Assembly: GCA_025699075.1 (NCBI GenBank)
Contig: JAILWG010000001.1
Location: forward strand, 1 to 64,000
Source: Candidatus Nitrosopumilus sp.
GTDB taxonomy: Archaea > Thermoproteota > Nitrososphaeria > Nitrososphaerales > Nitrosopumilaceae
Reading direction: 5' to 3'
DNA: 64,000 bases
Position numbers and translations under genes: made by a program. This document shows positions 41,369 through 47,006 of the stretch, in pieces (positions within the stretch are counted from its first letter, which is position 1; the number at the start of each line of letters is the position of its first letter). The notes below the pieces were generated by a model. That model made no database searches, was not told the origin of the DNA, and saw only the letters and a list, made by a program, of their open reading frames with translations.

Positions 41369-42031
41369 ATGAAGAAAAAAGGAGTAATTATAGGCGTAAT
41401 TGCAATTGCAATTATTGCTGGAATTGCTGCCTCTGTTTCATCTTCTCCTTCTGAAACTATGAACCTGGACATGAGTAGAACTCATGGTACTATTTCTACT
41501 GCGATGGGCTCTCCAATTTTGGGTGATCCTTCTGCTCCAATTACCATAGTTGAATTTGGAGATTATCAATGTCATCAATGTTACAATTGGTTCCATAATA
41601 CAAAACCTGCAATAATGGAAGATTATATAAAAACTGGAAAAGCAAATTTAGTTTTTGTTGATTTGGCCTTTTTAGGGCGTGATTCTCCAAAAGCTGCTCA
41701 AGCATCATACTGTGCAGAAGACCAAGAGATGTATTGGGAATATCACGACATGCTTTACAATTTGCAAGAAGACAAAATTGATAGTGGATGGGCAAACTCT
41801 GAAAGACTGAAAGCAATTGCTCTTGATTTAGGTCTGAATAATGAATTGTTTGAGAGTTGTCTTGATTCTGGAAAATATTCTAAACGCGTTCAGTACAATA
41901 GTCAACAAGCAAGAGATCATGGTGTGAGGGGAACTCCTGGATTTTTCATTGTAGGTCCTGATGGACAACAACAACTTGGAGGTGCACAACCATTTTCTGT
42001 GTTCAAACAAGTATTGGATGCTATGATCTAG
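41369..42031 (+). CDS. Membrane-anchored DsbA-family thiol oxidoreductase
   Basis: A 220-residue protein with an N-terminal transmembrane anchor (about 6-24) and an extracytoplasmic thioredoxin-like domain. The active site is C68-HQ-C71, and the cis-Pro loop is GVRGTPGFFIV. The two additional Cys (SYCAEDQ and ESCLDSG) are typical of archaeal DsbA-like proteins. It would form or shuffle disulfides in exported proteins. The next gene begins at the base after its stop codon, so the two are almost certainly an operon. Confidence 0.92.
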   Translation: MKKKGVIIGVIAIAIIAGIAASVSSSPSETMNLDMSRTHGTISTAMGSPILGDPSAPITIVEFGDYQCHQCYNWFHNTKPAIMEDYIKTGKANLVFVDLAFLGRDSPKAAQASYCAEDQEMYWEYHDMLYNLQEDKIDSGWANSERLKAIALDLGLNNELFESCLDSGKYSKRVQYNSQQARDHGVRGTPGFFIVGPDGQQQLGGAQPFSVFKQVLDAMI

Positions 42032-42517
42032 ATGACATCTGCAATCAATTCAGTATTTTCAAATTTAAAATATCTTGTCTTGTCTCTATCTATTTTTTCA
42101 TCCATGTTGATTGGTTTGTTGATTTTATCTGAATATGTCTTCTTGGAGCCTTATGTTGTTAGCCATATCCCATCTGGAACTGAATTTGGATTTGTGTTAA
42201 TTGTAACATTATCTGCATTATCTGCACTAGTCCTCCCAATGAACATTTTCAGAATAAACACTCTCAAAAAATCAAAACAAAAAATGGGTGGTGGTGTTTT
42301 TGGATCCTTTATTGGAGCTGTAGCTGGTGCATGTAGTTGTGGGCCAATTGGATTTGCAGTCATATCCACATTTGGATCTGTTGGAGCATCGGCCACTGCC
42401 TTTTTGACCAATTATGAAATTCCAATTCGATTAATTGCAATCATGATCTTGGCAATTACTTATTTTACCACTGTAAAATCTCTGAAAATCGAATGTAAAT
42501 TTGATCCAAAATTGTAA
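42032..42517 (+). CDS. Four-helix membrane protein coupled to DsbA, with CSCGP motif
   Basis: A 161-residue integral membrane protein. Hydrophobic helices are at about 12-32, 47-68, 88-116 and 122-148. The third starts with GAVAGACSCGPIGF, where a C-x-C pair sits at the membrane edge. The gene starts at the base following the DsbA stop codon. Coupling to DsbA plus the Cys pair suggests an electron-transfer partner analogous to DsbB, CcdA or VKOR, but it belongs to none of those families that I can recognise. Confidence 0.7.
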   Translation: MTSAINSVFSNLKYLVLSLSIFSSMLIGLLILSEYVFLEPYVVSHIPSGTEFGFVLIVTLSALSALVLPMNIFRINTLKKSKQKMGGGVFGSFIGAVAGACSCGPIGFAVISTFGSVGASATAFLTNYEIPIRLIAIMILAITYFTTVKSLKIECKFDPKL

Positions 42518-42752: not shown

Positions 42753-43673
42753 ATGATGCAGAATTGGAATTTGATTTTTGGAATTCTGATTATTTCTAGT
42801 CCTATCGTATTTTCCATGATCGCATTTCCTGATTCTATAGCTTGGAGTTGGAATGAAGGGAGAGGCGGGTATTTTTTTGCTCTTGTTTTCATTATAGCTG
42901 AATTAATTGGCTTGAAAATTATAATTTCAAAGAAACGACTTCTTACTGTAATTCCACTGGCATTAGTAACCATAACATATCTAATATCATTAGAGTTTGG
43001 TTTAAGAGAATACATTATTGAATCTGCAGAATTTTTTGATGTGCAATTAATCTATTCTTGGACATGGATGTGGGACTTTGTTGTAATGGCTATCTTCGTA
43101 GTTGCTGCATTGACTATTTTCTTTGGGAAACGTTGGATTAGGATTGCACCTGCAGGTCCGATATTTCTTACTGGTACTGCAATTATTCTTTCACTTGATG
43201 CCTTTTTCCCATATGATACACTTGGTCCATTACAATATGTTGTTCCATATTTTGTACAGGCAAACGTATGGATAATTACTGTCCTTGACCTTGGGACTGC
43301 AGTAGCCCGTGACAATGTGATGTTTTTACGTGGTGATCATGGTTCGATGGCTCTTCAAGTATTTTGGCCCTCTGCTGGTGTTCATAGTATTATCATTTTT
43401 TCATTAGTCATTGGAGCATTCATGTTAAAACTAAACATCCCTCGTAAAAGAAAGGCTGTTTATTTTGTTTTAGGAATTATTGGGACGATTACTGTCAATC
43501 TAATTCGTATTTTTTCTTTGTCTTGGTATGCTCTTAAAGTAACAACTGACCCTGTTGCATGGGAAGAATATCACAAAATTGCAGGTGAGATAATGTTCTT
43601 GCCTTGGCTGTTTGCCTTCATTTTTGTAGTGATCCTAATTGAATCAAGAAGGCTCAAAAAATCTGAAAAATAG
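42753..43673 (+). CDS. Thaumarchaeosortase-like (exosortase/archaeosortase family) transpeptidase
   Basis: A 306-residue protein with about eight transmembrane helices. The exosortase landmarks are in order: FWPSAGVHSI at 204-213, where the usual catalytic Cys is Ser207; N-L-I-R252; and YH274KIAGE. The family cleaves C-terminal sorting signals of surface proteins and attaches them to the membrane or another acceptor. The layout fits the thaumarchaeal branch (thaumarchaeosortase) from memory. Ser for Cys is visible in the sequence; whether it is the general state of the branch I cannot verify here. A candidate substrate is the PEYG-tailed protein at 20879-23347. Confidence 0.8.
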   Translation: MMQNWNLIFGILIISSPIVFSMIAFPDSIAWSWNEGRGGYFFALVFIIAELIGLKIIISKKRLLTVIPLALVTITYLISLEFGLREYIIESAEFFDVQLIYSWTWMWDFVVMAIFVVAALTIFFGKRWIRIAPAGPIFLTGTAIILSLDAFFPYDTLGPLQYVVPYFVQANVWIITVLDLGTAVARDNVMFLRGDHGSMALQVFWPSAGVHSIIIFSLVIGAFMLKLNIPRKRKAVYFVLGIIGTITVNLIRIFSLSWYALKVTTDPVAWEEYHKIAGEIMFLPWLFAFIFVVILIESRRLKKSEK

Positions 43674-46451: not shown

Positions 46452-47006
46452 TTGAAATTGAGCAGCAACAAAAAAACTAAAGACGCAGAAGACATCTTAT
46501 CTGAATTTGATTCAAGAATTAAACCAGAACCGGAACCAGAACCACAACTTGAAGCACCAGAACCAACACCAGAACCAGAACCACAACTTGAAGCACCAGA
46601 ACCAACACCAGAACCAGAACCACAACTTGAAGCACCAGAACCAGAACCACAACTTGAAGCACCAGAACCAGAACCACAACTTGAAGCCCCAAAATCTTCA
46701 TCAGACGATTCTTCTGATACAAGAAAAGTTCCGGAGGAGCGCGATGTCATTTTTGTTGGTACTAAACCGATTATGACTTATGTTTCTGCAACTTTAACTC
46801 AGCTTTCTACAAGACCTACGGTGACAATTAAAGCAAGAGGTAAACGAATTACCCAAGCAGTTGATGTTTCTCAAATGATTGTCAAACGAATGGATTCTGT
46901 TGGTTACGTGATTAAAGATGTTAGAATTTCATCTGATTCTCTAATTTCTCAAGATGGAAAACAAAGAAATGTCTCTACAATGGAAATTGATATTTCAAAA
47001 AACTAA
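46452..47006 (+). CDS. Alba chromatin protein with Glu-Pro repeat N-terminal extension
   Basis: A 184-residue protein starting at TTG. Residues about 96-184 are a full Alba domain (RDVIFVGTKPIMTYVSATLT ... VTIKARGKRITQAVDVSQMI ... VSTMEIDIS). Residues about 23-82 are a repeat of PEPEPQLEA units, two of them extended to PEPEPQLEAPEPT. Alba dimers bind DNA and RNA and coat archaeal chromatin. The acidic, proline-rich arm is not part of standard Alba, which is usually about 90 residues. It is a fixed part of the frame and not a separate gene. Confidence 0.92.
   Translation: MKLSSNKKTKDAEDILSEFDSRIKPEPEPEPQLEAPEPTPEPEPQLEAPEPTPEPEPQLEAPEPEPQLEAPEPEPQLEAPKSSSDDSSDTRKVPEERDVIFVGTKPIMTYVSATLTQLSTRPTVTIKARGKRITQAVDVSQMIVKRMDSVGYVIKDVRISSDSLISQDGKQRNVSTMEIDISKN
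46523..46692. repeat. 27/39-bp tandem repeats inside the Alba gene
   Basis: About five units of near-identical sequence (ccagaaccacaacttgaagc core). The first two units are 39 bp and the later ones 27 bp; each encodes PEPEPQLEA, some with an APEPT extension. Near identity at the base level suggests recent slippage and predicts length differences between strains. Confidence 0.93.

Follow-up and report, generated by a model that had tools for sequence, protein, structure and literature searches.

The thaumarchaeosortase gene in the window, by which we mean the whole stretch of 64,000 nucleotides analysed, encodes an enzyme that belongs to the exosortase/archaeosortase superfamily by descent but is not of the cysteine type. 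A serine, Ser207, occupies the position of the superfamily's catalytic cysteine, and we favour, with a probability of roughly 0.7, a reading of the sequence in which the protein would be a functional C-terminal sorting enzyme using Ser207 instead of cysteine as its nucleophile. The exchange of cysteine for serine has occurred twice independently, the arginine and histidine of the active site being kept on both occasions. If the favoured reading is correct, a protein-anchoring enzyme changed its nucleophile in nature, long ago and more than once, which would show the passage from a cysteine transpeptidase to a serine one; the little-studied anchoring of surface proteins in ammonia-oxidizing archaea would become testable.

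Gene, family and genomic context

The gene (positions 42753-43673, forward strand) specifies a multi-pass membrane protein of 306 amino acids without cysteine. It is a thaumarchaeosortase and a typical member of TIGR04297, with a score of 612.5 bits against this NCBIfam model (curated cut-off 250) and with eight PEFG-CTERM proteins over the cut-off encoded in its own genome. The superfamily signature TIGR04178 is also matched (45.9 bits, cut-off 23), the helices of a multi-pass membrane protein are present in the AlphaFold2 model, and of the conserved arginine and histidine (or arginine) of the superfamily both are found, the catalytic cysteine being replaced by serine. The archaeosortase C model scored below its cut-off on this open reading frame and a Pfam search of it gave no meaningful match. 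Its coordinates and translation are those of the preliminary description, while the family named there, TIGR04485, is wrong, as the profile score places the protein in TIGR04297.

The source genome (1.44 Mb, 85% complete) carries a single TIGR04297 gene. It also contains a match to AmoA and therefore belongs to an ammonia-oxidizing archaeon, a group which is very abundant in the ocean.

Upstream of the sortase gene lies a gene for a DsbA-like protein with a thioredoxin fold (41369-42031), followed by one for a small membrane protein without a Pfam match (42032-42517). The DsbA-like gene was considered as a conserved partner of the sortase and set aside, as no CxxC pattern was found beside the sortase in 30 deep-branching loci, a weak result given the crude pattern and flanks of about 1.5 kb. 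A further open reading frame (46452-47006) has repeated PEPEPQLEA units before its C-terminal part, which resembles an Alba-type nucleic-acid-binding domain.

Active-site residues

The three residues of the active site are Ser207 (in WPSAGVHS; codon TCT, 43371-43373), Arg252 (in NLIRI; codon CGT, 43506-43508) and His274 (in YHKIAGE; codon CAC, 43572-43574), all encoded on the forward strand. The preliminary description had equated Ser207 with the catalytic cysteine and regarded Arg252 and His274 as kept, and the alignments bear out all three positions. Arginine and histidine are each present in 139 of 139 family members in which the site is covered and in all 183 rows of a superfamily alignment that holds some genes twice. 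When the protein was aligned with a further 80 members of the exosortase family from the phylum (80 of the 90 over-cut-off matches listed), the column of Ser207 held cysteine in 78 and serine in two, and the columns of Arg252 and His274 were uniform (80/80 each).

Within TIGR04297 serine is found without exception. It is present in 81 of 81 near sequences (80 loci from named genome contigs and the query), with Arg252 and His274 in all 80 that cover the site, and in 160 of 160 family members read. The latter comprise a set of 140, with identities to the query down to 28%, and 20 further sequences from the window organism's family of genomes, mostly from other genera. All three residues are likewise retained in deep-branching relatives, which come from the order's other families and, in one case (G004), from another order; serine extends to proteins under the curated cut-off, the six lowest full ones scoring 118-162 bits. 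Residue 207 is therefore not variable among relatives, nor does a cysteine elsewhere take the catalytic position: the query contains none, 66 of the 81 near sequences are free of cysteine, and no alignment column has cysteine in even 20% of its rows. As the query and most near relatives lack any cysteine, no other cysteine can substitute.

Around Ser207, the residues W205, P206 and G209 are invariant or nearly so. One thaumarchaeosortase (L395, in G103) reads FWPSAAVHS, with the near-invariant Gly209 changed to alanine. The codon of Ser207 is TCN in 140 of 140 sequences and every third base is represented, so the codon often undergoes synonymous change whereas the amino acid stays constant. 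Confinement to one codon block was considered as proof of a catalytic role and is weak in this respect, since it also applies to Ser212 (all AGY) and Ser257 (all TCN); Ser32, Ser102 and Ser217 mix both blocks.

The AlphaFold2 model (mean pLDDT 84.9, pTM 0.79) places Ser207 after a short strand (197-202) and before a helix (210-226); Arg252 is part of helix 231-262 and His274 of helix 267-280. Basic loops occur at 59-62 (SKKR), 125-130 (GKRWIR) and 230-234 (PRKRK), and the C-terminus carries RRLKK. Application of the positive-inside rule suggests that the sides bearing these loops are cytoplasmic and that Ser207, Arg252 and His274 would face outward. A fold comparison with solved structures gave no relative (best E 0.53), and a sequence comparison with them gave no matches.

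Co-occurrence with PEFG-CTERM proteins

An example of the eight PEFG-CTERM tails of the source genome is VVPEFG with a hydrophobic stretch and then basic residues behind it; four of the eight stand in a row on contig 2. Among 400 genomes of the class, 252 have a TIGR04297 match (235 over the cut-off) and 257 a PEFG-CTERM match. In the window organism's own family, the sortase is found in 206 and the tail in 220 of 221 genomes, both counts being obtained by subtracting the listed misses. The remaining 179 genomes comprise 30 with both, 16 with the sortase only, seven with the tail only and 126 with neither, a significant co-occurrence (Fisher p 4e-16) when genomes are counted as independent despite their relatedness. 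One of the 16 sortase-only genomes (G006) owes its place there to a cysteine-type protein with a weak TIGR04297 match. Outside the window organism's family, 15 carriers of the serine enzyme, mostly from deep lineages, have no recognised PEFG-CTERM substrate, and no PEFG-like tail adjoins the sortase in 30 deep-branch loci.

In a sample of the phylum, all 44 genomes of the window organism's family have a TIGR04178 match, which is the single one over the cut-off in 42; the other two, G015 and G069, encode an additional cysteine-type enzyme. Extra cysteine-type archaeosortases are seen in a few genomes of this family (L206 in G015, L258 in G069 and L363 in G272). Six near-complete genomes of the order, all from genus g24 (G070, G093, G100, G114, G127 and G155), contain neither a superfamily match nor PEFG-CTERM, which represents joint loss or joint absence of sortase and tail.

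PEFG-CTERM proteins have been reported in Nitrosopumilus under peroxide (PMC6593220), and one such protein is a multicopper oxidase co-transcribed with amoABC (PMC9122916).

Two independent origins of serine

The two proteins with serine among the 80 other superfamily members led to a second, EpsH-like family from the same order. Its open frames are long, those that are complete having 600-774 aa, and their N-terminal half corresponds to an EpsH-type exosortase; one of them (L281) matches Pfam PF09721 with 85.8 bits and, of the NCBIfam exosortase models, only the general TIGR04178, no specific model exceeding its own cut-off. A search of the 400 class genomes recovered this family with a readable site in nine (loci L353-L361, in G137, G067, G217, G291, G164, G099, G077, G351 and G398), with serine in 9 of 9, and in a tenth (G362) only the other half of the protein is present. 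After the EpsH-like half, a CxxC...CxxC stretch is seen in L281, L282 and L283, and the domain that follows presumably resembles EpsI. The active site reads EPSSG, except in the two deepest members, which have ASSG, near the ACSG of cysteine-type relatives. The serine codon is AGT or AGC in five members and TCA in four, as against TCN only in TIGR04297, which fits different single-base routes from a cysteine codon.

A tree of 125 rows (19 from TIGR04297 and four from the second family) was calculated with the active-site column removed and has some long branches elsewhere. Each serine family forms one clade in it (99/82 for TIGR04297, 100/100 for the second). The two clades are far apart and each is nested within cysteine lineages, giving two changes in all, and a single joint serine clade is rejected (AU test, p 1e-5). 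From these positions and the differing codons it follows that the exchange occurred twice. A third candidate group (L336, L341) was discarded, as its alignment reads ECSG.

Proposed function and alternatives

We infer a course of events in which secreted proteins would be recognised at the outer face of the membrane by their PEFG-CTERM tail, with its motif, its hydrophobic helix and its basic end. The enzyme would cut the protein at the motif and hold the substrate as an O-acyl ester on Ser207 rather than as a thioester. His274 may act as the general base and Arg252 may stabilise the intermediate, and the protein would then be handed to a membrane acceptor, for example an amino-lipid.

Of the other explanations, the one that survives best, although we consider it unlikely, is a serine hydrolase that cuts the tail via Ser207 and resolves the ester by water, so that the protein is freed or held by other contacts. 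That only the nucleophile is altered and that the sequence indicates no acceptor would suit such an enzyme, whereas its homology to enzymes thought to lipidate their substrates (PMC7157517) speaks against it. Less probable still is a pseudoenzyme which, having lost the cysteine, merely binds or escorts PEFG-CTERM tails. The usual nucleophile of the superfamily is indeed missing, but serine, arginine and histidine are all invariant at identities of 28-100%, the genomes usually have no second superfamily enzyme beside several PEFG-CTERM substrates, and the same exchange arose twice. For these reasons a dead enzyme, already doubted in the preliminary description, is disfavoured; a dead serine enzyme would leave the majority of these organisms with substrates but without an enzyme for them. 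An active enzyme with a purely structural Ser207, in which another group such as water activated by His274 attacks, is compatible with the sequence and with the conservation of the neighbouring W205, P206 and G209, but is just as improbable, as Ser207 stands exactly where the relatives have their catalytic cysteine and is never replaced.

As to why a sorting enzyme with Ser207 as nucleophile should have arisen, we can offer a tentative explanation, which we hold to be possible rather than probable: serine-nucleophile exosortases may have arisen from cysteine enzymes on two or more occasions in one mostly aerobic archaeal order because a catalytic thiol exposed on the outer face of the membrane is a liability under oxygen or oxidants, at the price that an ester intermediate may limit the acceptors that can be used. 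A haem-copper oxidase subunit was found in 25 of 26 genomes with the serine enzyme versus 6 of 54 with cysteine enzymes only (Fisher p 5e-14), a comparison that is phylogenetically confounded, as nearly all serine carriers are of one lineage and the effective sample is two origins. A connection of the exchange with ammonia oxidation was rejected, since 13 of the 31 serine carriers searched have no AmoA match. Five of these genomes are at least 90% complete, and one, G004, belongs to another order. AmoA is likewise missing from the second family's two most deeply branching carriers. Aerobic respiration fits better, as a lead and not as a result: the cause is unproven because there are only two origins in one lineage, because aerobic haloarchaea retain cysteine, and because six cysteine-only genomes have the oxidase.

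Comparison with known systems

TIGR04297 and PEFG-CTERM are already known as database models, and the curators of the former may have noted the serine. A literature search that did not take in the two papers closest to the question found neither a paper on serine in thaumarchaeosortase nor experimental work, biochemical or genetic, on an enzyme of this family. What appears to be new is the double origin of serine, together with the link to aerobic lineages, which is phylogenetically confounded.

In score and co-occurrence, the protein does not differ from TIGR04297 as the presumed partner of PEFG-CTERM (TIGR04296). The cysteine-type archaeosortases L225, L229, L231, L236 and L237, from other lineages of the phylum, form the sister clade of TIGR04297 (joint clade 100/94); they read WPCAG (one WQCAG, one WPCVG) where TIGR04297 has WPSAG. 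The two sisters scanned give a full-length TIGR04297 match of 150-159 bits, similar to the deep serine relatives.

With ArtA of Haloferax volcanii, thaumarchaeosortase shares the superfamily, the multi-pass membrane topology, the conserved arginine and substrates with a tripartite C-terminus. The residues described as critical in ArtA are Cys173, Arg214 and Arg253 (PMC9263693), as opposed to serine, arginine and histidine, and the Haloferax model for the cysteine enzyme is outlined in PMC7157517. Rhombosortase, the enzyme of GlyGly-CTERM proteins, is likewise a serine enzyme acting on C-terminal tails of tripartite build (PMC3237569, PMC11980579), but it belongs to the rhomboid family, described as unrelated in PMC11980579, and owes its serine to ancestry and not to replacement of a cysteine.
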